Source: Siphonodentalium dalli
Taxonomy: Eukaryota > Mollusca > Scaphopoda > Gadilida > Siphonodentaliidae
Length of the DNA: 64,000 nucleotides
Direction of reading: 5' to 3'
NCBI GenBank assembly: GCA_032622095.1
Contig: CP136063.1
Location: 219,931,982 to 219,995,981, forward strand
Numbering within the stretch: position 1 is the first letter of the stretch; each line of letters begins with the position of its first letter. Shown here in pieces: positions 1-61,207 of this stretch. A model generated the notes under the pieces. That model saw only the letters and a program-made list of their open reading frames with translations, did not search any database and had not been told where the DNA came from. Made by a program: the position numbers and the translations under genes.

Positions 1-3000
1 ATACGATACTAAAACATTTGGTAACTACATGCACGCTGGTGAATATACGATACTGAAACATTTGGTAACTACATGCACGCTGGTGAATATACGATACTGA
101 AACATTTGGTAACTACATGCACGCTGGTGAATATACGATACTGAAACATTTGGTAACTACATGCACGCTGGTGAATATACGATACTGAAACATTTGGTAA
201 CTACATGCACGCTGGTGAATATACGATACTGAAACATTTGGTAACTACATGCACGCTGGTGAATATACGATACTGAAACATTTGGTAACTACATGCACGC
301 TGGTGAATATACGATACTGAAACATTTGGTAACTACATGCACGCTGGTGAATATACGATACTAAAACATTTGGTAACTACATGTACATGCACGCTGGTGA
401 ATATACGATACTGAAACATTTGGTAACTACATGCACGCTGGTGAATATACGATACTAAAACATTTGGTAACTACATGCACGCTGGTGAATATACGATACT
501 AAAACATTTGGTAACTACATGTACATGCACGCTGGTGAATATACGATACTGAAACATTTGGTAACTACATGCACGCTGGTGAATATACGATACTGAAACA
601 TTTGGTAACTACATGCACGCTGGTGAATATACGATACTGAAACATTTGGTAACTACATGTACATGCACGCTGGTGAATATACGATACTGAAACATTTGGT
701 AACTACATGCACGCTGGTGAATATACGATACTAAAACATTTGGAAACTACATGTACATGCACGCTGGTGAATATACGATACTGAAACATTTGGTAACTAC
801 ATGCACGCTGGTGAATATACGATACTGAAACATTTGGTAACTACATGCACGCTGGTGAATATACGATACTGAAACATTTGGTAACTACATGCACGCTGGT
901 GAATATACGATACTAAAACATTTGGAAACTACATGTACATGCACGCTGGTGAATATACGATACTGAAACATTTGGTAACTACATGCACGCTGGTGAATAT
1001 ACGATACTAAAACATTTGGAAACTACATGTACATGCACGCTGGTGAATATACGATACTGAAACATTTGGTAACTACATGCACGCTGGTGAATATACGATA
1101 CTGAAACATTTGGTAACTACATGCACGCTGGTGAATATACGATACTGAAACATTTGGTAACTACATGCACGCTGGTGAATATACGATACTGAAACATTTG
1201 GTAACTACATGCACGCTGGTGAATATACGATACTAAAACATTTGGAAACTACATGTACATGCACGCTGGTGAATATACGATACTGAAACATTTGGTAACT
1301 ACATGCACGCTGGTGAATATACGATACTAAAACATTTGGAAACTACATGTACATGCACGCTGGTGAATATACGATACTGAAACATTTGGTAACTACATGC
1401 ACGCTGGTGAATATACGATACTGAAACATTTGGTAACTACATGCACGCTGGTGAATATACGATACTGAAACATTTGGTAACTACATGCACGCTGGTGAAT
1501 ATACGATACTAAAACATTTGGAAACTACATGTACATGCACGCTGGTGAATATACGATACTGAAACATTTGGTAACTACATGCACGCTGGTGAATATACGA
1601 TACTGAAACATTTGGTAACTACATGCACGCTGGTGAATATACGATACTAAAACATTTGGAAACTACATGTACATGCACGCTGGTGAATATACGATACTGA
1701 AACATTTGGTAACTACATGCACGCTGGTGAATATACGATACTAAAACATTTGGAAACTACATGTACATGCACGCTGGTGAATATACGATACTAAAACATT
1801 TGGTAACTACATGCACGCTGGTGAATATACGATACTGAAACATTTGGTAACTACATGCACGCTGGTGAATATACGATACTAAAACATTTGGTAACTACAT
1901 GCACGCTGGTGAATATACGATACTGAAACATTTGGTAACTACATGCACGCTGGTGAATATACGATACTAAAACATTTGGAAACTACATGTACATGCACGC
2001 TGGTGAATATACGATACTAAAACATTTGGTAACTACATGCACGCTGGTGAATATACGATACTGAAACATTTGGTAACTACATGCACGCTGGTGAATATAC
2101 GATACTGAAACATTTGGTAACTACATGCACGCTGGTGAATATACGATACTAAAACATTTGGAAACTACATGTACATGCACGCTGGTGAATATACGATACT
2201 AAAACATTTGGTAACTACATGCACGCTGGTGAATATACGATACTAAAACATTTGGAAACTACATGTACATGCACGCTGGTGAATATACGATACTGAAACA
2301 TTTGGTAACTACATGCACGCTGGTGAATATACGATACTAAAACATTTGGAAACTACATGTACATGCACGCTGGTGAATATACGATACTAAAACATTTGGT
2401 AACTACATGCACGCTGGTGAATATACGATACTAAAACATTTGGAAACTACATGTACATGCACGCTGGTGAATATACGATACTGAAACATTTGGTAACTAC
2501 ATGCACGCTGGTGAATATACGATACTGAAACATTTGGTAACTACATGCACGCTGGTGAATATACGATACTAAAACATTTGGAAACTACATGTACATGCAC
2601 GCTGGTGAATATACGATACTGAAACATTTGGTAACTACATGCACGCTGGTGAATATACGATACTAAAACATTTGGTAACTACATGTACATGCACGCTGGT
2701 GAATATACGATACTGAAACATTTGGTAACTACATGTACATGCACGCTGGTGAATATACGATACTGAAACATTTGGTAACTACATGCACGCTGGTGAATAT
2801 ACGATACTAAAACATTTGGTAACTACATGTACATGCACGCTGGTGAATATACGATACTGAAACATTTGGTAACTACATGTACATGCATGCTGGTGAATAT
2901 ACGATACTGAAACATTTGGTAACTACATGCACGCTGGTGAATATACGATACTAAAACATTTGGTAACTACATGCACGCTGGTGAATATACGATACTAAAA

Positions 3001-6000
3001 CATTTGGTAACTACATGTACATGCACGCTGGTGAATATACGATACTGAAACATTTGGTAACTACATGTACATGCATGCTGGTGAATATACGATACTGAAA
3101 CATTTGGTAACTACATGCACGCTGGTGAATATACGATACTGAAACATTTGGTAACTACATGCACGCTGGTGAATATACGATACTAAAACATTTGGTAACT
3201 ACATGTACATGCACGCTGGTGAATATACGATACTGAAACATTTGGTAACTACATGCACGCTGGTGAATATACGATACTAAAACATTTGGTAACTACATGT
3301 ACATGCACGCTGGTGAATATACGATACTGAAACATTTGGTAACTACATGTACATGCACGCTGGTGAATATACGATACTGAAACATTTGGTAACTACATGT
3401 ACATGCACGCTGGTGAATATACGATACTGAAACATTTGGTAACTACATGCACGCTGGTGAATATACGATACTAAAACATTTGGTAACTACATGTACATGC
3501 ACGCTGGTGAATATACGATACTGAAACATTTGGTAACTACATGCACGCTGGTGAATATACGATACTGAAACATTTGGTAACTACATGCACGCTGGTGAAT
3601 ATACGATACTAAAACATTTGGTAACTACATGTACATGCACGCTGGTGAATATACGATACTAAAACATTTGGTAACTACATGTACATGCACGCTGGTGAAT
3701 ATACGATACTAAAACATTTGGAAACTACATGTACATGCACGCTGGTGAATATACGATACTAAAACATTTGGTAACTACATGTACATGCACGCTGGTGAAT
3801 ATACGATACTGAAACATTTGGTAACTACATGTACATGCACGCTGGTGAATATACGATACTGAAACATTTGGTAACTACATGCACGCTGGTGAATATACGA
3901 TACTAAAACATTTGGTAACTACATGTACATGCACGCTGGTGAATATACGATACTGAAACATTTGGAAACTACATGTACATGCACGCTGGTGAATATACGA
4001 TACTAAAACATTTGGTAACTACATGTACATGCACGCTGGTGAATATACGATACTGAAACATTTGGTAACTACATGTACATGCACGCTGGTGAATATACGA
4101 TACTGAAACATTTGGTAACTACATGCACGCTGGTGAATATACGATACTAAAACATTTGGTAACTACATGTACATGCACGCTGGTGAATATACGATACTGA
4201 AACATTTGGTAACTACATGTACATGCACGCTGGTGAATATACGATACTGAAACATTTGGTAACTACATGCACGCTGGTGAATATACGATACTAAAACATT
4301 TGGTAACTACATGTACATGCACGCTGGTGAATATACGATACTGAAACATTTGGAAACTACATGTACATGCACGCTGGTGAATATACGATACTAAAACATT
4401 TGGTAACTACATGTACATGCACGCTGGTGAATATACGATACTGAAACATTTGGTAACTACATGTACATGCACGCTGGTGAATATACGATACTGAAACATT
4501 TGGTAACTACATGCACGCTGGTGAATATACGATACTAAAACATTTGGTAACTACATGTACATGCACGCTGGTGAATATACGATACTGAAACATTTGGTAA
4601 CTACATGCACGCTGGTGAATATACGATACTGAAACATTTGGTAACTACATGCACGCTGGTGAATATACGATACTGAAACATTTGGTAACTACATGCACGC
4701 TGGTGAATATACGATACTGAAACATTTGGTAACTACATGCACGCTGGTGAATATACGATACTGAAACATTTGGTAACTACATGTACATGCACGCTGGTGA
4801 ATATACGATACTAAAACATTTGGTAACTACATGCACGCTGGTGAATATACGATACTGAAACATTTGGTAACTACATGCACGCTGGTGAATATACGATACT
4901 AAAACATTTGGTAACTACATGCACGCTGGTGAATATACGATACTAAAACATTTGGTAACTACATGCACGCTGGTGAATATACGATACTAAAACATTTGGT
5001 AACTACATGCACGCTGGTGAATATACGATACTAAAACATTTGGTAACTACATGCACGCTGGTGAATATACGATACTAAAACATTTGGTAACTACATGTAC
5101 ATGCACGCTGGTGAATATACGATACTGAAACATTTGGTAACTACATGCACGCTGGTGAATATACGATACTGAAACATTTGGTAACTACATGCACGCTGGT
5201 GAATATACGATACTGAAACATTTGGTAACTACATGCACGCTGGTGAATATACGATACTGAAACATTTGGTAACTACATGCACGCTGGTGAATATACGATA
5301 CTGAAACATTTGGTAACTACATGCACGCTGGTGAATATACGATACTGAAACATTTGGTAACTACATGTACATGCACGCTGGTGAATATACGATACTGAAA
5401 CATTTGGTAACTACATGTACATGCACGCTGGTGAATATACGATACTGAAACATTTGGTAACTACATGCACGCTGGTGAATATACGATACTAAAACATTTG
5501 GAAACTACATGTACATGCACGCTGGTGAATATACGATACTGAAACATTTGGTAACTACATGCACGCTGGTGAATATACGATACTAAAACATTTGGAAACT
5601 ACATGTACATGCACGCTGGTGAATATACGATACTGAAACATTTGGTAACTACATGCACGCTGGTGAATATACGATACTAAAACATTTGGAAACTACATGT
5701 ACATGCACGCTGGTGAATATACGATACTGAAACATTTGGTAACTACATGCATGCTGGTGAATATACGATACTAAAACATTTGGAAACTACATGTACATGC
5801 ACGCTGGTGAATATACGATACTGAAACATTTGGTAACTACATGCACGCTGGTGAATATACGATACTAAAACATTTGGAAACTACATGTACATGCACGCTG
5901 GTGAATATACGATACTAAAACATTTGGAAACTACATGTACATGCACGCTGGTGAATATACGATACTGAAACATTTGGTAACTACATGCACGCTGGTGAAT

Positions 6001-9000
6001 ATACGATACTAAAACATTTGGAAACTACATGTACATGCACGCTGGTGAATATACGATACTAAAACATTTTGAAACTACATGTACATGCACGCTGGTGAAT
6101 ATACGATACTGAAACATTTGGTAACTACATGCACGCTGGTGAATATACGATACTAAAACATTTGGAAACTACATGTACATGCACGCTGGTGAATATACGA
6201 TACTGAAACATTTGGTAACTACATGCACGCTGGTGAATATACGATACTAAAACATTTGGAAACTACATGTACATGCACGCTGGTGAATATACGATACTGA
6301 AACATTTGGTAACTACATGCACGCTGGTGAATATACGATACTAAAACATTTGGAAACTACATGTACATGCACGCTGGTGAATATACGATACTGAAACATT
6401 TGGTAACTACATGCACGCTGGTGAATATACGATACTAAAACATTTGGAAACTACATGTACATGCACGCTGGTGAATATACGATACTGAAACATTTGGTAA
6501 CTACATGCACGCTGGTGAATATACGATACTGAAACATTTGGTAACTACATGCACGCTGGTGAATATACGATACTAAAACATTTGGTAACTACATGCACGC
6601 TGGTGAATATACGATACTGAAACATTTGGTAACTACATGCACGCTGGTGAATATACGATACTGAAACATTTGGTAACTACATGCACGCTGGTGAATATAC
6701 GATACTAAAACATTTGGAAACTACATGTACATGCACGCTGGTGAATATACGATACTAAAACATTTGGTAACTACATGTACATGCACGCTGGTGAATATAC
6801 GATACTGAAACATTTGGTAACTACATGCACGCTGGTGAATATACGATACTGAAACATTTGGAAACTACATGTACATGCACGCTGGTGAATATACGATACT
6901 GAAACATTTGGTAACTACATGCACGCTGGTGAATATACGATACTGAAACATTTGGTAACTACATGCACGCTGGTGAATATACGATACTGAAACATTTGGT
7001 AACTACATGCACGCTGGTGAATATACGATACTGAAACATTTGGTAACTACATGCACGCTGGTGAATATACGATACTAAAACATTTGGAAACTACATGTAC
7101 ATGCACGCTGGTGAATATACGATACTGAAACATTTGGTAACTACATGCACGCTGGTGAATATACGATACTAAAACATTTGGAAACTACATGTACATGCAC
7201 GCTGGTGAATATACGATACTAAAACATTTGGTAACTACATGTACATGCACGCTGGTGAATATACGATACTGAAACATTTGGTAACTACATGCACGCTGGT
7301 GAATATACGATACTGAAACATTTGGTAACTACATGTACATGCACGCTGGTGAATATACGATACTGAAACATTTGGTAACTACATGCACGCTGGTGAATAT
7401 ACGATACTGAAACATTTGGAAACTACATGTACATGCACGCTGGTGAATATACGATACTGAAACATTTGGTAACTACATGCACGCTGGTGAATATACGATA
7501 CTAAAACATTTGGTAACTACATGTACATGCACGCTGGTGAATATACGATACTGAAACATTTGGAAACTACATGTACATGCACGCTGGTGAATATACGATA
7601 CTGAAACATTTGGAAACTACATGTACATGCACGCTGGTGAATATACGATACTGAAACATTTGGTAACTACATGCACGCTGGTGAATATACGATACTGAAA
7701 CATTTGGTAACTACATGCACGCTGGTGAATATACGATACTGAAACATTTGGTAACTACATGCACGCTGGTGAATATACGATACTAAAACATTTGGTAACT
7801 ACATGTACATGCACGCTGGTGAATATACGATACTGAAACATTTGGTAACTACATGTACATGCACGCTGGTGAATATACGATACTGAAACATTTGGTAACT
7901 ACATGTACATGCACGCTGGTGAATATACGATACTGAAACATTTGGTAACTACATGTACATGCACGCTGGTGAATATACGATACTAAAACATTTGGTAACT
8001 ACATGTACATGCACGCTGGTGAATATACGATACTGAAACATTTGGTAACTACATGTACATGCACGCTGGTGAATATACGATACTAAAACATTTGGTAACT
8101 ACATGTACATGCACGCTGGTGAATATACGATACTGAAACATTTGGTAACTACATGCACGCTGGTGAATATACGATACTGAAACATTTGGTAACTACATGT
8201 ACATGCACGCTGGTGAATATACGATACTAAAACATTTGGTAACTACATGTACATGCACGCTGGTGAATATACGATACTGAAACATTTGGTAACTACATGC
8301 ACGCTGGTGAATATACGATACTAAAACATTTGGTAACTACATGTACATGCACGCTGGTGAATATACGATACTAAAACATTTGGTAACTACATGTACATGC
8401 ACGCTGGTGAATATACGATACTGAAACATTTGGTAACTACATGTACATGCACGCTGGTGAATATACGATACTAAAACATTTGGTAACTACATGTACATGC
8501 ACGCTGGTGAATATACGATACTGAAACATTTGGTAACTACATGTACATGCACGCTGGTGAATATACGATACTGAAACATTTGGTAACTACATGCACGCTG
8601 GTGAATATACGATACTAAAACATTTGGTAACTACATGTACATGCACGCTGGTGAATATACGATACTGAAACATTTGGTAACTACATGCACGCTGGTGAAT
8701 ATACGATACTAAAACATTTGGTAACTACATGCACGCTGGTGAATATACGATACTGAAACATTTGGTAACTACATGCACGCTGGTGAATATACGATACTAA
8801 AACATTTGGTAACTACATGCACGCTGGTGAATATACGATACTAAAACATTTGGTAACTACATGCACGCTGGTGAATATACGATACTAAAACATTTGGTAA
8901 CTACATGTACATGCACGCTGGTGAATATACGATACTGAAACATTTGGTAACTACATGCACGCTGGTGAATATACGATACTAAAACATTTGGTAACTACAT

Positions 9001-12000
9001 GCACGCTGGTGAATATACGATACTAAAACATTTGGTAACTACATGCACGCTGGTGAATATACAATACTGAAACATTTGGTAACTACATGCACGCTGGTGA
9101 ATATACGATACTGAAACATTTGGTAACTACATGTACATGCACGCTGGTGAATATACGATACTAAAACATTTGGTAACTACATGCACGCTGGTGAATATAC
9201 GATACTAAAACATTTGGTAACTACATGCACGCTGGTGAATATACGATACTAAAACATTTGGTAACTACATGCACGCTGGTGAATATACGATACTGAAACA
9301 TTTGGTAACTACATGCACGCTGGTGAATATACGATACTGAAACATTTGGTAACTACATGCACGCTGGTGAATATACAATACTGAAACATTTGGTAACTAC
9401 ATGCACGCTGGTGAATATACGATACTGAAACATTTGGTAACTACATGTACATGCACGCTGGTGAATATACGATACTGAAACATTTGGTAACTACATGTAC
9501 ATGCACGCTGGTGAATATACGATACTGAAACATTTGGTAACTACATGCACGCTGGTGAATATACGATACTGAAACATTTGGTAACTACATGTACATGCAC
9601 GCTGGTGAATATACGATACTGAAACATTTGGTAACTACATGTACATGCACGCTGGTGAATATACGATACTGAAACATTTGGTAACTACATGTACATGCAC
9701 GCTGGTGAATATACGATACTGAAACATTTGGTAACTACATGCACGCTGGTGAATATACGATACTGAAACATTTGGTAACTACATGTACATGCACGCTGGT
9801 GAATATACGATACTGAAACATTTGGTAACTACATGTACATGCACGCTGGTGAATATACGATACTGAAACATTTGGTAACTACATGCACGCTGGTGAATAT
9901 ACGATACTGAAACATTTGGTAACTACATGTACATGCACGCTGGTGAATATACGATACTGAAACATTTGGTAACTACATGTACATGCACGCTGGTGAATAT
10001 ACGATACTGAAACATTTGGTAACTACATGCACGCTGGTGAATATACGATACTGAAACATTTGGTAACTACATGTACATGCACGCTGGTGAATATACGATA
10101 CTGAAACATTTGGTAACTACATGCACGCTGGTGAATATACGATACTGAAACATTTGGTAACTACATGTACATGCACGCTGGTGAATATACGATACTGAAA
10201 CATTTGGTAACTACATGTACATGCACGCTGGTGAATATACGATACTAAAACATTTGGTAACTACATGTACATGCACGCTGGTGAATATACGATACTGAAA
10301 CATTTGGTAACTACATGCATGCTGGTGAATATACGATACTGAAACATTTGGTAACTACATGCACGCTGGTGAATATACGATACTGAAACATTTGGTAACT
10401 ACATGCACGCTGGTGAATATACGATACTGAAACATTTGGTAACTACATGTACATGCACGCTGGTGAATATACGATACTGAAACATTTGGTAACTACATGC
10501 ATGCTGGTGAATATACGATACTAAAACATTTGGTAACTACATGTACATGCACGCTGGTGAATATACGATACTGAAACATTTGGTAACTACATGCATGCTG
10601 GTGAATATACGATACTAAAACATTTGGTAACTACATGTACATGCACGCTGGTGAATATACGATACTGAAACATTTGGTAACTACATGCATGCTGGTGAAT
10701 ATACGATACTAAAACATTTGGTAACTACATGTACATGCACGCTGGTGAATATACGATACTGAAACATTTGGTAACTACATGTACATGCACGCTGGTGAAT
10801 ATACGATACTGAAACATTTGGTAACTACATGTACATGCATGCTGGTGAATATACGATACTGAAACATTTGGTAACTACATGCACGCTGGTGAATATACGA
10901 TACTAAAACATTTGGTAACTACATGTACATGCACGCTGGTGAATATACGATACTGAAACATTTGGTAACTACATGTACATGCACGCTGGTGAATATACGA
11001 TACTGAAACATTTGGTAACTACATGCACGCTGGTGAATATACGATACTAAAACATTTGGTAACTACATGTACATGCACGCTGGTGAATATACGATACTGA
11101 AACATTTGGTAACTACATGCACGCTGGTGAATATACGATACTAAAACATTTGGTAACTACATGTACATGCACGCTGGTGAATATACGATACTGAAACATT
11201 TGGTAACTACATGTACATGCACGCTGGTGAATATACGATACTGAAACATTTGGTAACTACATGCACGCTGGTGAATATACGATACTAAAACATTTGGTAA
11301 CTACATGTACATGCACGCTGGTGAATATACGATACTGAAACATTTGGTAACTACATGTACATGCACGCTGGTGAATATACGATACTGAAACATTTGGTAA
11401 CTACATGCACGCTGGTGAATATACGATACTAAAACATTTGGTAACTACATGTACATGCACGCTGGTGAATATACGATACTGAAACATTTGGTAACTACAT
11501 GTACATGCACGCTGGTGAATATACGATACTGAAACATTTGGTAACTACATGCACGCTGGTGAATATACGATACTGAAACATTTGGTAACTACATGCACGC
11601 TGGTGAATATACGATACTGAAACATTTGGTAACTACATGTACATGCACGCTGGTGAATATACGATACTGAAACATTTGGTAACTACATGCACGCTGGTGA
11701 ATATACGATACTGAAACATTTGGTAACTACATGCATGCTGGTGAATATACGATACTGAAACATTTGGTAACTACATGCACGCTGGTGAATATACGATACT
11801 AAAACATTTGGTAACTACATGCACGCTGGTGAATATACGATACTGAAACATTTGGTAACTACATGCACGCTGGTGAATATACGATACTGAAACATTTGGT
11901 AACTACATGCACGCTGGTGAATATACGATACTGAAACATTTGGTAACTACATGCACGCTGGTGAATATACGATACTAAAACATTTGGTAACTACATGCAC

Positions 12001-15000
12001 GCTGGTGAATATACGATACTGAAACATTTGGTAACTACATGCACGCTGGTGAATATACGATACTGAAACATTTGGTAACTACATGCACGCTGGTGAATAT
12101 ACGATACTGAAACATTTGGTAACTACATGCACGCTGGTGAATATACGATACTAAAACATTTGGTAACTACATGCACGCTGGTGAATATACGATACTAAAA
12201 CATTTGGTAACTACATGCACGCTGGTGAATATACGATACTGAAACATTTGGTAACTACATGCACGCTGGTGAATATACGATACTAAAACATTTGGTAACT
12301 ACATGCACGCTGGTGAATATACGATACTAAAACATTTGGTAACTACATGCACGCTGGTGAATATACGATACTGAAACATTTGGTAACTACATGCACGCTG
12401 GTGAATATACGATACTAAAACATTTGGTAACTACATGCACGCTGGTGAATATACGATACTGAAACATTTGGTAACTACATGCACGCTGGTGAATATACGA
12501 TACTGAAACATTTGGTAACTACATGCACGCTGGTGAATATACGATACTGAAACATTTGGTAACTACATGCACGCTGGTGAATATACGATACTGAAACATT
12601 TGGTAACTACATGCACGCTGGTGAATATACGATACTAAAACATTTGGTAACTACATGTACATGCACGCTGGTGAATATACGATACTGAAACATTTGGTAA
12701 CTACATGTACATGCACGCTGGTGAATATACGATACTGAAACATTTGGTAACTACATGCACGCTGGTGAATATACGATACTAAAACATTTGGTAACTACAT
12801 GTACATGCACGCTGGTGAATATACGATACTGAAACATTTGGTAACTACATGTACATGCACGCTGGTGAATATACGATACTGAAACATTTGGTAACTACAT
12901 GCACGCTGGTGAATATACGATACTAAAACATTTGGTAACTACATGTACATGCACGCTGGTGAATATACGATACTGAAACATTTGGTAACTACATGTACAT
13001 GCACGCTGGTGAATATACGATACTGAAACATTTGGTAACTACATGCACGCTGGTGAATATACGATACTAAAACATTTGGTAACTACATGTACATGCACGC
13101 TGGTGAATATACGATACTGAAACATTTGGTAACTACATGTACATGCACGCTGGTGAATATACGATACTGAAACATTTGGTAACTACATGCACGCTGGTGA
13201 ATATACGATACTGAAACATTTGGTAACTACATGCACGCTGGTGAATATACGATACTGAAACATTTGGTAACTACATGTACATGCACGCTGGTGAATATAC
13301 GATACTGAAACATTTGGTAACTACATGTACATGCACGCTGGTGAATATACGATACTGAAACATTTGGTAACTACATGCACGCTGGTGAATATACGATACT
13401 GAAACATTTGGTAACTACATGTACATGCACGCTGGTGAATATACGATACTAAAACATTTGGTAACTACATGTACATGCACGCTGGTGAATATACGATACT
13501 GAAACATTTGGTAACTACATGTACATGCACGCTGGTGAATATACGATACTGAAACATTTGGTAACTACATGCACGCTGGTGAATATACGATACTGAAACA
13601 TTTGGTAACTACATGCACGCTGGTGAATATACGATACTGAAACATTTGGTAACTACATGTACATGCACGCTGGTGAATATACGATACTAAAACATTTGGT
13701 AACTACATGCACGCTGGTGAATATACGATACTGAAACATTTGGTAACTACATGTACATGCACGCTGGTGAATATACGATACTGAAACATTTGGTAACTAC
13801 ATGCACGCTGGTGAATATACGATACTGAAACATTTGGTAACTACATGCACGCTGGTGAATATACGATACTGAAACATTTGGTAACTACATGCACGCTGGT
13901 GAATATACGATACTGAAACATTTGGTAACTACATGCACGCTGGTGAATATACGATACTGAAACATTTGGTAACTACATGCACGCTGGTGAATATACGATA
14001 CTGAAACATTTGGTAACTACATGTACATGCACGCTGGTGAATATACGATACTGAAACATTTGGTAACTACATGCACGCTGGTGAATATACGATACTGAAA
14101 CATTTGGTAACTACATGCACGCTGGTGAATATACGATACTAAAACATTTGGTAACTACATGTACATGCACGCTGGTGAATATACGATACTGAAACATTTG
14201 GTAACTACATGTACATGCACGCTGGTGAATATACGATACTGAAACATTTGGTAACTACATGCACGCTGGTGAATATACGATACTGAAACATTTGGTAACT
14301 ACATGCACGCTGGTGAATATACGATACTAAAACATTTGGTAACTACATGTACATGCACGCTGGTGAATATACGATACTGAAACATTTGGTAACTACATGT
14401 ACATGCACGCTGGTGAATATACGATACTGAAACATTTGGTAACTACATGCACGCTGGTGAATATACGATACTAAAACATTTGGTAACTACATGTACATGC
14501 ACGCTGGTGAATATACGATACTGAAACATTTGGTAACTACATGTACATGCACGCTGGTGAATATACGATACTGAAACATTTGGTAACTACATGTACATGC
14601 ATGCTGGTGAATATACGATACTGAAACATTTGGTAACTACATGTACATGCACGCTGGTGAATATACGATACTGAAACATTTGGTAACTACATGCACGCTG
14701 GTGAATATACGATACTAAAACATTTGGTAACTACATGTACATGCACGCTGGTGAATATACGATACTGAAACATTTGGTAACTACATGTACATGCACGCTG
14801 GTGAATATACGATACTGAAACATTTGGTAACTACATGCACGCTGGTGAATATACGATACTAAAACATTTGGTAACTACATGTACATGCACGCTGGTGAAT
14901 ATACGATACTGAAACATTTGGTAACTACATGTACATGCACGCTGGTGAATATACGATACTGAAACATTTGGTAACTACATGCACGCTGGTGAATATACGA

Positions 15001-15350
15001 TACTAAAACATTTGGTAACTACATGTACATGCACGCTGGTGAATATACGATACTGAAACATTTGGTAACTACATGCACGCTGGTGAATATACGATACTGA
15101 AACATTTGGTAACTACATGTACATGCACGCTGGTGAATATACGATACTGAAACATTTGGTAACTACATGCACGCTGGTGAATATACGATACTGAAACATT
15201 TGGTAACTACATGCACGCTGGTGAATATACGATACTGAAACATTTGGTAACTACATGCACGCTGGTGAATATACGATACTAAAACATTTGGTAACTACAT
15301 GTACATGCACGCTGGTGAATATACGATACTGAAACATTTGGTAACTACAT
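1..15350. repeat. 44/50-bp satellite array, about 330 units
   Basis: A head-to-tail array fills the first 15.35 kb without interruption and runs off the left edge. The basic unit is 44 bp (starts ATACGATACTGAAACATTTG). A 50-bp form carries an extra GTACAT that makes the palindrome CATGTACATG. Three more variable sites are seen: A or G after GATACT, T or A in CATTTGG(T/A)AAC, and C or T in GCACGC/GCATGC. Neither unit length is a multiple of three and all frames are closed, so it is not coding. The last canonical unit ends near 15350, 268 bp before exon 1 of the flippase gene. Because exon 1 begins with a splice acceptor, the array is inferred to lie inside an upstream intron. Confidence 0.97.
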
Positions 15351-15424
15351 TCATGCTCATGAATAATTATTTGATTCCCATGGATTCATTTATTTTGAAG
15401 AGATAAGTTCAACAAACAGCCTTA

Positions 15425-15676: not shown

Positions 15677-15741
15677 GTAAGTACTATTATGCTGGTGACC
15701 ATCAATATAACGCACAGTTCCTTTATGAAGTAAGTGCATTA
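15636..15741 (+). repeat. 53-bp tandem duplication across exon 1 donor
   Basis: The sequence from ATGCTGGTGACC through the donor occurs at 15636 and again at 15689, a period of 53 bp. The second copy keeps GTAAGT, but the base before the last exonic A is changed (TATGCA to TATGAA). Use of the second donor would add 53 bp and shift the frame, so the first donor is the productive one. Confidence 0.9.
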
Positions 15742-16938: not shown

Positions 16939-17052
16939 AATAACTACATCAAGACCTCCAAATACAATGTTTTCACATTTCTTCCAAAGAACTTGTTTGA
17001 GCAGTTTCAGAGGCTCGCTAACTTCTATTTCCTCTGTCTTCTAATTCTCCAG
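16939..17052 (+). CDS. ATP8B: P4-ATPase exon 2: approach to M1 and M1 helix
   Basis: 114 bp, 38 codons, phase 0 at both ends, with acceptor tcttttttcag and donor GTATGT. Reads [20 protein letters not shown], then [18 protein letters not shown]. The segment T.KYN..TFLP.NLFEQF is a strong P4-ATPase signature before M1, and [13 protein letters not shown] is the first membrane helix. In yeast Drs2 and Dnf1 the two residues at the M1 end (QQ or GA) form the entry gate for the lipid headgroup. Here the exon ends exactly on what aligns as the first of these (Q), and the second comes from exon 3a or 3b. The alignment is mine, made by eye. Confidence 0.96.
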
Positions 17053-24630: not shown

Positions 24631-25224
24631 GAGGCCCCCACCCCCCTTTTCGTACGTCGTATTCCATGCCCTAGTATGAGGTATGCCGTATTCCGGCCCC
24701 TCTGTTAACCCTTTACCCAACAGAAGGGCCCTGTGCCAATGCATTCTCTTATATATGCGAGTCGACCATAGGTCGCCTCGCATATATAAGAGAATGCATT
24801 GGCTTAACACATTAAAAATTATAAAATTGTTAAAAAAAGTAAGAAAAAAAGATTTTTTTTAGGCCAATGCATTCTCTTATATATGCGAGGCGACCTATGG
24901 CCGACTCGCATATATACGAGAATGCATTGGTACTGGGCATAACTGTAACTATCACAATGTGGTCAAGGAGCCGGTTCCAATGATATCCATATTTGTATGG
25001 TTCTATTGAGACAGACCGAAGATATTTTAGGCTGTTGAAGCTTTATTTGGCCGGTTTTGGCCGGTTTGTTGGGTAAAGGGTTAAGAGGTATTCCAAAAAT
25101 ACCGGTATTCGTACGCCGACCTTCCAAAAAATGAAGTTTTCATCTATTTTTATGTATTCCATATGGCTGTATTCCACCCTCTGTGTTAAGTGGTATTCCG
25201 TATTCCATGGGGGTGGGGGGTCTC
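24631..25224. mobile_element. Element with G/C-rich inverted ends, split by PB1
   Basis: Left end GAGGCCCCCACCCCCC and right end GGGGGTGGGGGGTCTC are inverted. Repeated CGTATTCC motifs lie inside both halves. A complete PB1 (24705-25084) interrupts it. Confidence 0.6.
24705..25084. repeat. PB1 dual-hairpin MITE
   Basis: TTAACCCTTTACCCAACA to its inverse, TTAA at both ends, two TATATATGCGAG hairpins and an A-rich linker. Close match to the copies at 17481, 31037 and 36035. Confidence 0.88.
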
Positions 25225-25483: not shown

Positions 25484-25582
25484 TCGATTCCTCAAATCAC
25501 CCCATACGCCTGGTACTTTACCCTCCTGCCATTGGTGGTCGTACTCGGATTAACGGCCATCAAAGATGCAGTCGACGACATC
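25484..25582 (+). CDS. ATP8B: P4-ATPase exon 3a: M2 helix, alternative version A
   Basis: 99 bp, 33 codons, phase 0 on both sides, acceptor tatttaccacag, donor GTAAGT. Reads [20 protein letters not shown], then [13 protein letters not shown]. This is the M1-M2 turn plus M2 helix and the conserved KDAVDD that leads into the actuator domain; it resembles vertebrate ATP8B1 in this region. The first codon (S) aligns with the second entry-gate residue of Drs2/Dnf1. A homologous exon of the same length and phase lies 2.7 kb downstream (28270-28368). Skipping both would delete M2, and including both would add a second M2 helix, so I infer a mutually exclusive choice. Confidence 0.95.
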
Positions 25583-28269
25583 GTAAGTCAGAACCACTGG
25601 TGACTTTCACCTCTTCACCGAGCACACCCTAACTGCTTTTATTTTTCTCCTGATAATCTTAGTTCTTTTTATATCTGACACGGCCGGGAATCTACGTCAT
25701 AATTTTCTCAAAACTGGCAGCAAGATATCACGCTTGGCAATTTCAAGATTCAGTTTTTTCAATATTTTCCAAAGATGTGAGCAAACTAATAGACTAATGA
25801 GCTATTCCAACTACTCATCTCGATTACTACAAAAACCTGAATAGAGTTGCAACGATACAATTGGTCACGATATGATACTAATCACGATACATTATTAATG
25901 ATACAATACATATCACGATACACTAAATTAGTGTTTTCAAATGAATACCACCTGAAAAATCAGAAACTAGTTTATAACTGGAGGTAGAGTTCATCTTTAA
26001 CCCACAATGGAGTTTAATTGTTGGTTGATAGCTCATTCGCTATCTTTTTTGGTTGAGTTATTTATATATGTGAAGAAAATGATGAGTATTCACGTCAATG
26101 TAAGATATCTTGCCTCCTTTTTCGAGTAAATTATGACAGAGTTTCCCGGCCATGTATATGTTATCCTTGCATAGCTAACATGGACACCATGAACCTTCAT
26201 TTTATCGACAAGAAATTTAAAAAAATTAAATTATTTTTTCTTTATAGCTGTTCTTCCATTTTGATTGTTTTTTGTATAATATATATACCGATTTTTTGGG
26301 CGTTATTCCACATGATCACTGGTGAATGCAAATGTGTTCACTTGAAATAATTTTTCGCAAATACAAATAAATAAAATTTACACATTAATATCTCAATTAT
26401 TCTCATATTATGACTAATAGAATGGAATGGTTTGGGAAAAGCCTTATACAAACTGAACACTGTGAGAAAAAAAACCAGTTTAAAATAAAAAAAAATTTGG
26501 TAAAAATGTTATTGACAGATTCATAAACCAACTGATAGTTTAATAAATTAATTGAAGAACCGAATATATTAATGTTTAGAACATAGAACTAAAAAAATGA
26601 AGGTAATTGGTGGTATGAATATTGGTTGTGTCACATAGCTTATTACAGATTTTCAGTATGCTTTTTGTTCTCTGCTTTCCGTTCTTTGCTTTGCAACTAA
26701 ATGTGCGGAAATAGTTTGGAAGCTTATTTTGAGTTTTGCAGTTAATTTTCTTTTAGTTTTTCAGTCTCTTGAACTAGCCTGGGGATATTATGGAGCTGCT
26801 CGAGAAATGTTGAAATGCATTTTTGTTTTTAACAATTTTAATATGGATATATACTCAAAAACATTTTTTTCTTCTCTTTTGATATATTGTTGACACTTGT
26901 TCATTTCGTATATGTGCGGCATCCCTACTAAAGATCTGTGCACACTATACAGAGCAACATTCACTCTGACTTGTTGCCTATGAAAGTTGATATAAACCTT
27001 GGTGTAGAATTCAACACTAAATATAAAATCTAATCACATAATCGTATAGTTATTGATTCTTGCCAGTGTGGGGTGGGGCCCATCAATAGAATAAGAAAAA
27101 TAAAGTAATCTCAAATTATGGATATGATAAAATATTCTGCACTATCTATTTTTACTGAATAACCCAAATTGTTTTAATAGTTTGTTTATATTAAAGCACG
27201 TTTAATAGTTTGTTTATAAGCACATTTAATAGCTTGTTTCTAATAAGCATAGCCTGTTTATAAGCACGTTTTATTCTAATAATATTCAGCAGCTTTCACG
27301 ATTTTTAGTTTTATTAATTTACCATTTAGCAGCTTGTATAATGTGTTGCTATGCATGTGTATTCCTCTCTCACATGGGTGTGTCTCCCTCCTCCTCCCTA
27401 GAGGTGCTTGGATGAGGTTGTTAATGATTCTCTCTCCCTTCTCACCTACTTTCCTCCCTTCAGCATAAACCTATAACATTATTTGTAGCATCAAGACAGT
27501 CTCCCAGTATCCATGCTGGTACTAGTAGGTATTCTTCTAATACAATTTGAAGTTGACTAATTAAAGACCGGATAAATATCTTTTGTGCCACTTCACATTA
27601 TTTGCTATTGAATACAGCAAAGACAAGTACAATTCTACATCATAGCCGTTCTACTAAATCTCTTATTTATAAAAAAAAAAAAAAAAATAGTGTGCAAAAA
27701 TATATTTCAAAACTTTTATACGAGTTTTGTTTGTGTTACTTCAAAATAAAAATTAGATTGTGCATGTTTGATATATATATTAAGTGACAAGCTCCAGGGC
27801 TGAATGATTCATCATGATTTAAAATCATCGTGATTATTTCTATGTATCACATTTAGAATGTTTGATGTGATGCGTTATAGATTAATTTAGTCTCATATAA
27901 ATTGCAGGAATCAGGTTGTGAAGTTGCCATGCATGCAGTGAGCAACTTCATTTCTGCAACGAAGGCTGAATTAATTCATAGCGGCAACTATAGAAATTCT
28001 GTTTTGTGATGCATATCGCATCATCACAAAAACATCGCGATGCGCATTACATTGTGAAATTCCTCGTCATTGCAGCCCTAACAAGTTCATGTCTAAAATG
28101 TACTTCTCTGTAATTTAATAAAATCTTGCGTATGGATATTTAAGTCCTGTCTTTTCGATGGTCATCTTCAAATTTTTGTGAAGCAAATCATCATCAATCC
28201 AGGGTAGATCAGGGAGTGAGTCAGTAGCCCGTCTATTAAAGACGTCGAATCATTCTGTCTTTTTCATAG
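25583..28269. other. Intron between the two M2 exons
   Basis: AT-rich, with few of the palindromic elements common elsewhere. It holds a small minisatellite at about 27174-27285 (TTTAATAGTTTGTTTATAAG-like units of 25-30 bp) and a run of A near 27669-27687. I see no third copy of the M2 exon in it. Confidence 0.6.
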
Positions 28270-28368
28270 TTCATTCCTGAGGTTTCGTCTCTGACGCCCC
28301 TGACCACCTTGATTCCTCTCGTCGCTGTGTTGGCCGTCTCCTCAGCTAAGGATGCTGTCGATGATTTT
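28270..28368 (+). CDS. ATP8B: P4-ATPase exon 3b: M2 helix, alternative version B
   Basis: 99 bp, phase 0 on both sides, acceptor tctttttcatag, donor GTGAGT. Reads FIPEVSSLTPLTTLIPLVAV, then LAVSSAKDAVDDF. It aligns with exon 3a without gaps, 15 of 33 residues identical, including IP, T-L-x-P-L-V-x-V-L and KDAVDD. The differences fall at the gate residue (F for S), in the M1-M2 turn (AWYF replaced by TPLT) and on the helix (GLTAI replaced by AVSSA). It is open, has good splice sites and keeps the conserved C-terminal motif, so a recent pseudo-exon is unlikely. It resembles vertebrate ATP8B2 in the turn (IP..SSL). Transcript support is not available here. Confidence 0.9.
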
Positions 28369-31036: not shown

Positions 31037-31425
31037 TTAACCCTTTACCCAACAAACCGACCAAAACCGGCCAAATAAAGCTTCAACAGCCTAAAATATC
31101 CTCGGTCTGTCTCAATAGAACCATACAAATATGGATATCATTGGAACCGGCTCCTTGACCACATTGTGATAGTTACAGTTATGCCCTGTGCCAATGCATT
31201 CTCTTATATATGCGAGTCGACCATAGGTCGCCTCGCATATATAAGAGAATGCATTGGCCTTTTTTAAACACTTTTTACCATTTTTTCTTACATTCTTTAA
31301 CAATTTTATAATTTTTAATGTGTTAAGCCAATGCATTCTCTTATATATGCGAGGCGACCTATGGTCGACTCGCATATATAAGAGAATGCATTGGCACAGG
31401 GCCCTTCTGTTGGGTAAAGGGTTAA
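31037..31425. repeat. PB1 dual-hairpin MITE, reverse orientation
   Basis: TTAACCCTTTACCCAACA ends with TTAA duplication. Both TATATATGCGAG hairpins are intact, and the GGAACCGGCTCCTTGACC block now lies at the left, so this copy is inverted relative to those at 17481, 24705 and 36035. Confidence 0.88.
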
Positions 31426-31440
31426 CACCTAAACATGATC

Positions 31441-32046: not shown

Positions 32047-33880
32047 AAACCAGGTTCTTGGATAACTGTAAGGTAACACATTTCCGTATTTTCTTATCAG
32101 AGACCAGCACACCATGTGATATATGTATTTTTTCATTTGTAGTAGGTATGTCATTAATTAATGAATATCATCACATCATGACCCCTGTGTTTTCTGCTAG
32201 ACTGGTTCTTGGGTCACTGTAAGGTAACACATTTCTGTATTTTCTTATCAGAGACCACCAGCACACCATGTGATATGTATTTCTTCATCTGTGGTTACTG
32301 TATGTTATTACTTGTGAATATTATCACATCGAGTCGACCCCCGTCCTTGTCTTCCTAGACTGGTTCTTGGGTCACCGTAAGGTAACACAATTCCATATTT
32401 TCTTATCAGAGACCAGCACACCATGTGATATGTATTTCTTCATCTGTGGTTACTGTATGTTATTACTTGTGAATATTATCACATCGAGTCGACCCCCCCG
32501 TCCTTGTCTTCCGTTAGACTGGTTCTTGGGTCACCGTAAGGGAACACATTTCCGTATTTTCTTATCAGAGACCAGCACACCATGTGATATGTATTTCTTC
32601 ATCTGTGGTTACTGTATGTTATTACTTGTGAATATTATCACATCGAGTCGACCCCCTGTCCTTGTCTTCCTAGACTGGTTCTTGGGTCACCGTAAGGGAA
32701 CACATTTCTATATTTTCTTATCAGAGACCTGCGCACCATGTGATATGTATTTCTTCATCTGTGGTTACTGTATGTTATTACTTGTGAATATTATCACATC
32801 GAGTCGACCCCCCGTCCTTGTCTTCCGTTAGACTGGTTCTTGGGTCACCGTAAGGGAACACATTTCCGTATTTTCTTATCAGAGACCAGCACACCATGTG
32901 ATATGTATTTCTTCATCTGTGGTTACTGTATGTTATTACTTGTGAATATTATCACATCGAGTCGACCCCCTGTCCTTGTCTTCCTAGACTGGTTCTTGGG
33001 TCACCGTAAGGGAACACATTTCTATATTTTCTTATCAGAGACCTGCGCACCATGTGATATGTATTTCTTCAACTGTGGTTACTGTATGTTATTACTTGTG
33101 AATATTATCACATCGAGTCGACCCCCGTCCTTGTCTTCCTAGACTGGTTCTTGGGTCACCGTAAGGTAACACAATTCAATATTTTCTTATCAGAGACCAG
33201 CACACCATGTGATATGTATTTCTTCATCTGTGGTTACTGTATGTTATTACTTGTGAATATTATCACATCGAGTCGACCCCCCGTCCTTGTCTTCCTAGAC
33301 TGGTTCTTGGGTCACCGTAAGGGAACACATTTCCGTATTTTCTTATCAGAGACCAGCACACCATGTGATGTTTTTCTTCATCTGTGGTTACTGTATGTTA
33401 TTACTTGTAAATATTATTACATCGAGTCGACCCCCGCCCTTGTCTTCCGTTAGACTGGTTCTTGGGTCACCGTAAGGTAACACATTTCCGTATTTTCTTA
33501 TCAGAGACCAGCACACCATGTGATATGTATTTCTTCATCTGTGGTTACTGTATGTTATTACTTGTGAATATTATCACATCGAGTCGACCCCCGTCCTTGT
33601 CTTCCGTTAGACTGGTTCTTGGGTCACCGTAAGGGAACACATTTCTATATTTTCTTATCAGAGACCAGCACACCATGTGATATGTATTTCTTCAACTGTG
33701 TTTACTGTATGTTATTACTTGTGAATATTATCACTTCGAGTCGACCCCCGTCCTTGTCTTCCGTTAGACTGGTTCTTGGATCACCTTGAGGTAACACATT
33801 TCCGTATTTTCTTATCAGAGACCTGCACACCATGCAATATGTATTTTTCGTCAGTGGTTCGACATTGATTTTGTCTTACC
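32047..33880. repeat. 156-bp tandem array, about 12 units
   Basis: Units start AGACTGGTTCTTGGGTCACC at 32199, 32357, 32516, 32672, 32830, 32986, 33141, 33297, 33452, 33609 and 33766 (spacing 155-159 bp), with a diverged unit at each end. Each unit contains GTAAGG after the start and a TTTTCTTATCAG tract. One frame stays open over short runs (up to 154 codons), but length changes of 1-3 bp break it. I treat it as a minisatellite, not a gene. Confidence 0.92.
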
Positions 33881-38067: not shown

Positions 38068-38202
38068 CAACGGCATCGGAGCGATGCATCAGTTAACAAT
38101 CGTAAGACGATTGTTCTGCGGGGCGGAAAACTCGTCGAGGAACACTGGCATAAGGTGACAATAGGAGACATAATCAAAATGGACAACAACCAATTTGTTG
38201 CG
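38068..38202 (+). CDS. ATP8B: P4-ATPase exon 4: after M2, start of actuator domain
   Basis: 135 bp, phase 0 at both ends, acceptor ttctgtctcatctag, donor GTGAGT. Reads QRHRSDASVNNRKTIVLRGG, then KLVEEHWHKVTIGDIIKMDN, NQFVA. The pattern RH.SD..VNNR followed by W..V.VGDII and N..FVAAD is typical of the segment that links M2 to the actuator domain in ATP8B proteins. It accepts either exon 3a or 3b upstream without a frame change. Confidence 0.96.
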
Positions 38203-42735: not shown

Positions 42736-42983
42736 CTGAAATCATTGCCGAAAAGCCAAACAACAGACTCAGCAAATTCGAAGGAACAATGAAATGGAAC
42801 AACAAGACATACTCTATAGATAACGAGAAGATTCTATTACGTGGTTGCGTGCTCAGAAACACCCAATGGTGTTATGGCGTTGTTATCTTCGCTGGAAGAG
42901 ATACCAAATTAATGATGAACAGTGGCCAAACAAAATTCAAGAGAACGCATATAGATCGACTTCTTAACGTACTGGTGATTGGT
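42736..42983 (+). CDS. ATP8B: P4-ATPase exon 7: rest of actuator domain to M3 border
   Basis: 248 bp, acceptor ccttaatttttag, donor GTAAGT. Reads (G/A)EIIAEKPNNRLSKFEGTM, then KWNNKTYSIDNEKILLRGCV, LRNTQWCYGVVIFAGRDTKL, MMNSGQTKFKRTHIDRLLNV, LVIG. PNN.L.KF.GT, LLRGC.LRNT.W, VIFAG.DTKLM.NSG and KRT.IDRL.N are diagnostic of P4-ATPases. Its end and donor are repeated in tandem downstream. Reading past the first donor meets a stop at about 43020, so the first donor is the productive one. Confidence 0.97.
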
Positions 42984-43115
42984 GTAAGTATAAACTCGAT
43001 GACATGTAGATCGACTTCTTAACGTACTGGTGATTGGTGTAAGTATAAACTCGATGACATATAGATCGACTTCTTAACGTACTGGTGATTGGTGTAAGTA
43101 TAAACTCGATGACAT
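42948..43115 (+). repeat. 55-bp tandem triplication of exon 7 donor border
   Basis: The block ATAGATCGACTTCTTAACGT...GGT-GTAAGTATAAACTCGATG occurs with TTCTTAACGT at 42961, 43016 and 43071, exactly 55 bp apart. A fourth partial copy lies at 44246-44287, beyond the inserted element. The copies are almost identical, so the event is recent. Each copy preserves the GTAAGT donor. Confidence 0.95.
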
Positions 43116-44240: not shown

Positions 44241-44286
44241 TGACATATAGATCGACTTCTTAACGTACTGGTGATTGGTGTAAGTA

Positions 44287-52643: not shown

Positions 52644-53162
52644 AGGGACCCATCAACAAATGCATGAACAAATATATTGACTTCATTCTTAAGTTCTTTA
52701 TTAATAATTCTCCAATAATGAGATTTCACATGTTAAAACCATTGTTATGTAAACATTCCAGTGGAATTACCAATAAAAGTTTAATCAAAAGTTGACGGAA
52801 ACTTGAAAAAGGTCAAAGCATTGAAAAATATTCTGAAATCATATTCCAATTAAAATATTTCAAATTATTATGCAATTAGCAATGTTTGTTTACAATTAAA
52901 TGTAACGGTTTTGTTTACTTAATAAAGGTTTCAACAAGTGAAATTTTGTTCTTGGAGAACTATCAATAATGAATATAAGTTTTTATAATTCTCCATGTTC
53001 TTAGAGATGATGTTTTTACAGACTTATATATTTTTTCCACATTTACCCACTGTGAGTGCATTGGGTCCCTTTAATAGCTTTTTTACCATGATTTGAATAC
53101 AGACTCTTTGTGAACATTTTAACCTTCTCTGTTGCTGCCATGATATCCATAATTATAACGAA

Positions 53163-54262
53163 CTAAAGAGTTATATGGTCCACAATAGTTACCAGTGGGT
53201 TTATAACAAACTAAAGTGTTATATGGTCCACAATAGTTACCAGTGGGTTTATAACAAACTAAAGTGTTATATGGTCCACAATAGTTACCAGTGGGTTTAT
53301 AACAAACTAAAGTGTTATATGGTCCATAATAGTTACCAGTGGGTTTATAACAAACTAAAGTGTTATATGGTCCACAATAGTTACCAGTGGGTTTATAACA
53401 AACTAAAGAGTTATATGGTCCACAATAGTTACCAGTGGGTTTATAACAAACTAAAGAGTTATATGGTCCACAATAGTTACCAGTGGGTTTATAACAAACT
53501 AAAGAGTTATATGGTCCACAATAGTTACCAGTGGGTTTATAACAAACTAAAGAGTTATATGGTCCACAATAGTTACCAGGGTTTATAACAGACTAAAGAG
53601 TTATATGGTCCACAATAGTTACCAGTGGGTTTATAACAAACTAAAGAGTTATATGGTCCACAATAGTTACCAGTGGGTTTATAATAAACTAAAGAGTTAT
53701 ATGGTCCACAATAGTTACCAGTGGGTTTATAACAAACTAAAGAGTTATATGGTCCACAATAGTTACCAGTGGGTTTATAACAAACTAAAGAGTTATATGG
53801 TCCACAATAGTTACCAGTGGGTTTATAACAAACTAAAGAGTTATATGGTCCACAATAGTTACCAGTGGGTTTATAACAAACTAAAGAGTTATATGGTCCA
53901 CAATAGTTACCAGTGGGTTTATAATAAACTAAAGAGTTATATGGTCCACAATAGTTACCAGTGGGTTTATAATAAACTAAAGAGTTATATGGTCCACAAT
54001 AGTTACCAGTGGGTTTATAACAAACTAAAGAGTTATATGGTCCACAATAGTTACCAGTGGGTTTATAACAAACTAAAGAGTTATATGGTCCACAATAGTT
54101 ACCAGTGGGTTTATAACAAACTAAAGAGTTATATGGTCCACAATAGTTACCAGTGGGTTTATAACAAACTAAAGAGTTATATGGTCCACAATAGTTACCA
54201 GTGGGTTTATAACAAACTAAAGTGTTATATGGTCCACAATAGTTTCCAGGGTTTTTCTTATG
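53163..54262. repeat. 48-bp minisatellite, about 23 units
   Basis: Unit AGAGTTATATGGTCCACAAT, then AGTTACCAGTGGGTTTATAA, CAAACTAA. 48 bp is 16 codons, so one + frame reads MVHNSYQWVYNKLK(S/C)Y again and again (137 and 224 residues, interrupted by a 2-bp loss near 53580). GAGT/GTGT variants cluster at the two ends. It lies in the intron after exon 10, with no splice borders that would make it part of the flippase. I treat the ORFs as by-products. Confidence 0.95.
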
Positions 54263-60102: not shown

Positions 60103-60720
60103 GTAAGCTTTATATACACCCGCTCTCTGCCACACCGTCAGGGACCAGCTTAGGGCTGATTTTCAGGGCGAAGTGACTTCTCCCTGTCACAAAAATCGGG
60201 TGAAGTGGGAGATTTCCAGGACGAAATTCGTTGGCAAAATTTAAATCCGCCCGCACTGTAGTCGCCTATAAAAGGCTATATAAAGAAAATAGGAGATATG
60301 TAATATTTAAATTAAAATGATGAAACAATGGTTGAAATGTGGAAGCTTTATGTTCAAATCATGGCAATCTCATACGACATCCCCGTCAAGAACATTTTGG
60401 GCTGAAGTTTGTTAGACAGTACCTCCTGAATGTGCTTCCAAATCGGATTAATACAGCTGTTAATAGTAAATATGGTGTTATCTATGACAGTGGCAATGGA
60501 TAACTTGGTTCAATCAATGTTGGCAGTAAATAGTGGGTGAATATTTTGCCGATTTTCTAGGTCAAATTCGGAAATTTCAGGGCGACTTAAACTTCGCCCG
60601 GCTGCAAAATTAGGGCGAAGTGAGCAAGAATAGGGAGACTTCTTCCCCCACGTCGCCCTCTCGGCTGTTCCCTGCACACCGTCATGCCAGAGTATACAGA
60701 TGGTGAGCTTTCGATTTTAA
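60065..60720 (+). repeat. 56-bp duplication of exon 11 donor border, split by an insertion
   Basis: CGCTCTCTGTCACACCGTCA starts at 60065 and recurs as CGCTCTCTGCCACACCGT at 60121 (56 bp). The second copy continues after the inserted element as CACACCGTCATGCCAGAGTA, TACAGATG-GTGAGC, so it once held a complete, usable donor. Confidence 0.93.
60139..60674. mobile_element. hAT-like element in the duplicated exon 11 border
   Basis: Ends CAGGGACCAGC and (inverted) CAGGGAACAGCC, flanked by the 8-bp duplication CACACCGT (60131-60138 and 60675-60682). 536 bp, non-coding, with GGGCGAAGTGA-type motifs at both sides. Confidence 0.92.
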
Positions 60721-61033: not shown

Positions 61034-61042
61034 CCCTTCCTG

Positions 61043-61207
61043 CTTGAGTATCAAGCCCAGTCACCTAATGGTCGCTTGTTGTCTTATTCTAGACGTGCTT
61101 GAGTATCAAACCCCGTCACCTGATGACCACTTGTTTTCTTATTGTAGATGTGCTTGAGTATCAAGCCCAGTCACCTGATGAAGAAGCCCTGGTGTCTGCC
61201 GCCAGAA
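61043..61207 (+). repeat. 55-bp tandem triplication of exon 12 acceptor border
   Basis: CTTGAGTATCAA(G/A)CCC(A/C)GTCACCT(A/G)ATG occurs at 61043, 61098 and 61153, exactly 55 bp apart. The third copy is the exon. Copy 2 has its own acceptor (GTCTTATTCTAG). Splicing there would add 55 bp and reach a TGA. Confidence 0.95.

Follow-up and report, generated by a model that had tools for sequence, protein, structure and literature searches.

The ATP8B-type flippase gene in the window (the 64,000-nucleotide stretch analysed here, positions 219931982–219995981 of contig C3, + strand, in a genome of 2.23 Gb in 9 contigs) contains a tandem-duplicated pair of exons for the second membrane helix, M2, which we take to be used alternatively in the sole gene of this type found in the genome; we put the probability of this reading at roughly 0.7. 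The two exons, referred to as 3a and 3b (Table 1), were first noticed in a preliminary description of this DNA, and its account of an ATP8B gene with two homologous M2 exons is confirmed at the same coordinates: both are 99 bp long, in phase 0, with GT-AG splice sites (3a, ...ccacag/TCG...ATC/gtaagt; 3b, ...tcatag/TTC...TTT/gtgagt), and they align without gaps at 15 of 33 identical residues. Neither 33-residue translation contains a stop (that of 3b reads FIPEVSSLTPLTTLIPLVAVLAVSSAKDAVDDF). With 3a as the query, 3b was the second match in the window (E = 1.6e-6) and the next match scored 0.21, so the likeness of the two is not due to chance. No third M2-like exon was found in the window, the next best E being 0.21 for the 3a and 3b queries and 0.53 for the ATP8A exon query. 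Among PDB sequences, the top match of both exons is the M1-M2 region of human ATP8B1 (E about 6e-8 for 3a and 0.002–0.009 for 3b), and both are hydrophobic and M2-like, with a mean hydropathy of 1.87 (3a) and 1.82 (3b) compared to 1.98 for the human ATP8B1 M2 segment. The DNA directly shows the pair with its splice sites, how old and constrained it is and which residues are exchanged, and on this sequence evidence 3a and 3b are real, old and constrained candidates for alternative M2 exons of a flippase gene.

The gene is assigned to the ATP8B type of P4-ATPases. Fourteen exons were placed in the window, including 3a and 3b and all with GT-AG borders, which makes 13 per isoform and an open frame that spans 579 residues whether 3a or 3b is used and 612 residues when both are included. 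Exon 2 closes with ...LLILQ/gt at 17052, exon 4 opens at 38068, and the frame is preserved alike by 3a and 3b. The model carries the DKTGT, LDGET and M4 PISL motifs, the PhoLip_ATPase_N domain (PF16209) is matched over its cut-off at C3:219948911, and the M6 context FYNVFYTSLPV, which holds the equivalent of ATP8B1 N989, is present downstream of the window. The gene extends to at least C3:220033493; a 5' exon with a start codon was not found for it. A PVFL sequence that seemed to replace PISL ahead of exon 9 proved to be a misread intron, the true M4 with PISL being located in exon 8. Over its 579 residues isoform A is best matched by human ATP8B1 (8ox4–8oxc, 7py4, 7vgh–7vgj), scoring 652 bits against 485 for ATP8A1, 449–450 for Drs2, 367 for Dnf1 and 327–328 for ATP11C, among 20 distinct sequences listed with no entry named ATP10. 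Human ATP8B1 and this gene have in common the M1 Gln, M2 T144, the M4 Asn and PISL; they differ at T143, replaced by Phe in 3a, and at W390, replaced by Leu here. Across the genome, the TIGR01652 profile gave at least 44 exon-level matches at no fewer than five loci (two of them on C5 and one each on C2, C3 and C4), and the C3 gene is the only ATP8B-type P4-ATPase found. The locus at C5:112.4 Mb is ATP8A by its M2 exon, in which 26 of 33 residues are as in human ATP8A1, while the loci at C5:4.4 Mb, on C4 and on C2 are ones that we take, by familiar M2 family features, to be ATP10, ATP11 and ATP9, respectively. Neither the mollusc haemocyanin domain PF14830 nor the cuticle domain PF00379 was matched in this genome, a result of little weight because both were also without a match in 14 control genomes, and no plain telomere repeat was present in the 240 of 400 bases viewed at each of 6 ends of 3 contigs.

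Table 1. Exons of the ATP8B-type gene in the window (window coordinates).
Feature	Start	End	Strand	Remarks
E1, ATP8B coding exon	15618	15676	+	ends ..IERRIHAGDHQYNAQFLYA; tblastn with an approximate ATP8B2 sequence (weak, E 0.11), junctions, frame
Exon 2, M1 helix	16939	17052	+	PF16209 match over cut-off; final codon encodes the conserved gate glutamine
Exon 3a	25484	25582	+	M1-M2 turn and M2 helix; S1, Q4, W10, F12, T13
Exon 3b	28270	28368	+	M1-M2 turn and M2 helix; F1, E4, P10, T12, T13
Exon 4	38068	38202	+	starts QRHRSDASVNNR; first constant exon after 3a/3b
Exon 5	38939	39009	+	tblastn with approximate ATP8B2 sequence; junctions
Exon 6	40878	40960	+	starts ETNLKVRQAIPDTAK
Exon 7	42736	42983	+	P4-ATPase profile match; junctions
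Exon 8, M3 to M4	47304	47515	+	intact NTVVPISL, equivalent to ATP8B1 N397 and PISL
Exon 9	48893	49055	+	phosphorylation motif DKTGT
Exon 10	52083	52172	+	tblastn with approximate ATP8B2 sequence; junctions
Exon 11	59940	60102	+	tblastn with approximate ATP8B2 sequence; junctions
Exon 12	61148	61227	+	tblastn with approximate ATP8B2 sequence; junctions
Exon 13	63377	63598	+	P4-ATPase profile match; gene runs on past window end

In searches of the whole genome (E up to 10), 3a and 3b each occur at a single place, and beyond each other they matched no M2 exon except that of ATP8A. This bears on one alternative explanation for the pair, namely that the assembly or the annotation has fused two ATP8B genes or alleles in one locus. 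The region is indeed repeat-rich, with a 15-kb satellite upstream; yet just one of the 4 genome matches of exon 2 is a full ATP8B copy, 3a and 3b have one each, and no other window exon recurs in the window except as partial fragments, leaving an artefact of this kind with very little credibility.

The two copies differ at 54 of 99 sites. Synonymous differences amount to 25.7 of 26.3 sites (pS 0.97, which is saturated), pN is 0.39, and the same codon is used for only five of the 15 residues common to both exons; with synonymous sites saturated, the idea of a recent tandem copy was set aside. The dN value is 0.55 between 3a and 3b, 0.56 between 3a and the ATP8A exon, and 0.69 between 3b and the ATP8A exon. 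In simple neutral simulations that started from 3a (20,000 runs at each level of divergence), 15 identities without a stop were retained in 3.6% of runs at 40% site divergence, in 19 of 20,000 at 50%, and in none of 20,000 at either 60% or 70%. The saturated synonymous sites and the outcome of the simulation together argue that both copies have long been under selection, and the purifying selection that the preliminary description wished to see tested in relatives is evident in pS and pN measured between the copies themselves. Such constraint would span much of the history of both copies and is compatible with a recent loss of one of them.

Exon copies were also sought elsewhere in the gene, by searching the 13 window exons and 3b against the window and eight downstream segments against the next 40 kb. 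Across all of these, exon 3 alone has a full-length intact second copy. Partial copies in the window derive from the last parts of E1, exon 7 (three copies) and exon 11 and from the first part of exon 12 (two), and two of the three exon 7 copies have a stop within the aligned stretch. These exon-end and exon-start copies, some of which contain stops, lie at 15688–15726, 42997–43093, 44244–44279, 60675–60701 and 61040–61127, and at two places the exon-border copies sit in tandem repeats of about 55 bp (42948–43115 and 61041–61181). Downstream, 22 residues of the M6 exon recur at 73% identity just upstream of the full exon (L016:3571-3636), and the start of the M6-M7 exon is copied over 25 residues at 84% identity, with an in-frame stop (L016:4637-4711). 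Duplication of fragments at exon borders seems to be frequent in this ATP8B gene. A general tendency of the gene to duplicate exons was considered as the cause of the 3a/3b pair and set aside, the other copies being partial or broken.

The partial copies probably show the appearance of a useless copy in this gene, and 3b looks unlike them. This matters for a second alternative, according to which one exon alone is used and the other is a lingering copy that has recently lost its role and is rarely or never spliced in. Two observations lean towards it, the weakness of both donors (see below) and the presence of several junk-like partial exon copies in the gene. The junk copies are nevertheless partial and some have a stop, unlike 3b, and both 3a and 3b are stop-free, flanked by GT-AG and constrained in amino acid sequence against saturated synonymous change, making single-exon use unlikely in our judgement.

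The organisation of the paralogues places the exon itself still further back. In the ATP8A gene (C5:112.42–112.49 Mb), the M2 exon is likewise exactly 99 bp, in phase 0, and begins and ends at the same codons, and the exon 2 match in both ATP8A and ATP11 likewise ends at the same glutamine. Judging by these shared boundaries, the 99-bp M2 exon is probably older than the ATP8A/ATP8B split. ATP8A has a single M2 exon in the interval examined as opposed to the two of the ATP8B gene, and no second M2 exon was found in any of the 4 other P4 genes when the M1-to-A-domain intervals examined were searched with their own M2 peptides (E up to 1). Pattern searches for relatives yielded 13 matches to exon 9 and 50 to exons 2 and 3b in viral contigs, and 102 to exons 2 and 3a in bacterial and archaeal genomes, none of which was confirmed. 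In the history that we favour, an ancient 99-bp, phase-0 exon with ATP8A-like boundaries would have been duplicated long ago in the ATP8B gene, with both copies retained since.

One copy per mRNA would be expected. Use of both exons in mRNA, their exclusivity and a functional effect of the choice are what we infer from the features of the pair, with membrane topology as the basis for mutual exclusion: inclusion of both exons would give an extra hydrophobic segment and skipping of both would leave the protein with M2 gone. The locus has no steric block, U12 sites or frameshift to force a choice, as there are 2,687 bp between the exons, every border is GT-AG with a U2-like donor, and the lengths, 99 and 99 bp, are divisible by three. 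In human clusters, a steric block, a U2/U12 clash and a frameshift are present in 9%, 0.79% and 60%, respectively, according to the available part of PMC5740500, and because they are seen in only part of those clusters such forcing features are not required of a member. The donors of 3a and 3b are the two weakest of the 14 (5.0 and 4.4 bits, the other 12 ranging from 6.2 to 12.0, on a simple approximate matrix), and they rank in the top 16% and 26% among the 3,491 GT dinucleotides of the window. Weak donors fit with regulated use; the exon-end codons at 3a and 3b would, however, weaken any such donor, and the donor of the ATP8A M2 exon is alike (TTT/gtaagt).

A third alternative is that 3a and 3b are independent cassette exons, so that transcripts contain one, both or none of them, the double and zero forms being non-functional or regulatory. 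The 2.7 kb spacing, the GT-AG sites and the 99-bp lengths all permit joint in-frame inclusion (612 residues), and the pair lies between two oppositely oriented copies of an interspersed repeat. On the other hand, with both exons included a largely hydrophobic stretch of 33 residues would be added after M1 and ahead of the A domain, and with both skipped M2 would be lost; each outcome should break the ten-helix topology, and we consider independent use improbable for this reason, and an exclusive choice between 3a and 3b is the reading that we carry forward.

The flanking repeat copies (24703–25084 and 31037–31427) are 90–99% complementary and lie about 6 kb apart. A search for inverted repeats that might let the introns pair competitively as RNA gave 202 pairs of at least 30 nt; among the 25 of 202 listed, the longest are interspersed repeat copies that are 90–99% alike. 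Flanking inverted repeats favour exon skipping or circular RNA elsewhere, and could do so for the 3a/3b pair. They were rejected as a switch between the two exons, since the interspersed copies, at 90–99% alike, are probably younger than the pair.

Residues were numbered from the PDB matches, such that position k of exon 3 corresponds to ATP8B1 131+k and Drs2 237+k (anchored by position 2 = Drs2 239 and position 12 = 143 in 8ox7_A) and, by gapless carry-back from position 14 = Dnf1 244, to Dnf1 230+k. Exon 2 accordingly ends in the equivalent of ATP8B1 Q131, Drs2 Q237 and Dnf1 G230. The exon 2/3 junction consequently splits the yeast entry-gate pair, Drs2 Q237/Q238 and Dnf1 G230/A231 (the latter by gapless carry-back), as the preliminary description had proposed. 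Its wider claim that the exons swap the entry gate is not upheld, because the M1 glutamine, the strongest PS-transport residue, is fixed in the constant exon 2. This glutamine (Drs2 Q237, ATP8A1 Q88) had the strongest effect on PS transport among thousands of membrane-segment mutations, as stated in the accessible text of PMC12424579, while simulations of Drs2 put specificity deeper than the entry gate, as summarised in a section of the review PMC11460456.

The preliminary description overlooked the exchange at the position of ATP8B1 T143. In the E2P state, the lipid headgroup is anchored by the M4 Asn and an M2 Thr (ATP8B1 T143), and on closure it meets the M1 Gln (Q131 in ATP8B1) and the adjacent threonine T144; cargo specificity may rest more on the triggering of occlusion than on the binding mode (PMC11225554). 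The rotamer of T144 differs between PC- and PS-occluded ATP8B1, as given in the available portion of a 2025 structure paper (PMC12723151). In bovine ATP8A2, D99A reduces Vmax with PE 2.9-fold and leaves PS wild-type-like, and R105A reduces Vmax 2-fold with both PE and PS; counted from the pair I91/L127 given in the available text of that study (PMC5585164), D99 is position 4 and R105 is position 10. Position 1 (Drs2 Q238, Dnf1 A231) is S in 3a and F in 3b, position 4 is Q in 3a and E in 3b, and position 10 is W in 3a and P in 3b. At position 12 (T143), 3a has Phe where 3b, the ATP8A of this genome, human ATP8A1 and ATP8B1 all have Thr, and at position 13 (T144) all five sequences have Thr. The two exons therefore differ at four of the five positions for which a published role was found, which carries no statistical signal because 18 of 33 residues differ overall; identity is 4/15 in the outer half and 11/18 in the inner half, a difference that is not significant (Fisher p = 0.08).

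Exon choice would leave unaffected the M1 glutamine, M2 T144, the M4 PISL motif and the M6 asparagine, and would exchange the exoplasmic start of M2, comprising the residue after the gate Gln, two loop positions and T143 (Phe in 3a, Thr in 3b). The isoforms would most likely differ in the first hold on the lipid and in the ease of passing to occlusion, and hence headgroup preference or rate may differ, by cell type or stage. Our tentative proposal, to which we give slightly less than an even chance, is that the choice rewrites the lipid-binding site: 3b would provide the canonical M2 Thr-Thr relay and 3a a Phe at T143 together with an altered gate neighbour and loop, such that selectivity or occlusion kinetics differ. 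Since specificity may depend mainly on the trigger for occlusion (PMC11225554), losing T143 might change affinity or rate and not selectivity; this view and the deeper site of the Drs2 simulations (PMC11460456) both speak against a simple selectivity switch. What lends itself to a pointed test is the replacement of Thr by Phe where the headgroup first makes contact, and not the entry-gate pair that the preliminary description emphasised.

The preliminary description also likened the first version to vertebrate ATP8B1 and the second to ATP8B2. The former comparison is sound, with 22 of 33 residues of 3a and 16 of 33 of 3b identical to human ATP8B1; for the latter, 3a (54% over 37 positions) and 3b (53% over 32) are alike in their match to an approximate ATP8B2 sequence other than a database entry. 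That the pair substitutes for the paralogue diversity of vertebrates is speculation.

Neighbouring homologous exons that match in length and phase, and that belong to a membrane transporter gene, are likewise known from tandem duplicated exon substitution and mutually exclusive exons (PMC9741552, PMC5740500). Human exon-swap regions tend to avoid small-ligand binding sites, according to the available part of PMC9741552, whereas here a headgroup-contact residue is exchanged. The terms 'ATP8', 'ATP11' and 'flippase' are absent from the main text of both PMC9741552 and PMC5740500. Several isoforms per P4-ATPase gene occur alike in C. elegans tat-1 and tat-2, Drosophila dATP8B and bovine ATPase II (ATP8A1). 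Ding et al. reportedly dealt in 2000 with ATPase II isoforms and phospholipid specificity. In tat-1 and tat-2 it is the termini that vary, as far as the available text of PMC2572054 describes them, in contrast to the M2 exon pair here, and among the seven predicted isoforms of dATP8B only differences in N-terminal length are evident in the available text of PMC3961175. An earlier description of such a pair in a P4-ATPase was not found among the papers listed from the literature searched, most subscription papers lying outside it, and the pair may already be annotated in some gene-model database. The mechanism is of a known kind, in a gene family for which those papers gave no earlier description of it.

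The basis of lipid choice by P4-ATPases is debated, with the entry gate, a deeper M2/M4/M6 site and the triggering of occlusion all under discussion (PMC11225554 and the available parts of PMC12424579 and PMC11460456). If both pumps are made, they would form a natural matched pair, 18 residues apart around the lipid entry and one of them without the M2 anchor Thr, which would allow the question of lipid choice to be tested directly. Lipid pumps would then also join the transporters that are tuned by exon swapping.

The gene lies in a repeat-rich setting. A 15.4-kb tandem array of about 329 copies of a 44-bp unit occupies positions 1–15365 of the window, stopping some 250 bp short of the first ATP8B exon found. 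Two further arrays are located in introns, one at 32053–33859 with a 156-bp unit (11.6 copies, 93% matches) and the other at 53153–54249 with a 48-bp unit (22.9 copies, 98% matches).
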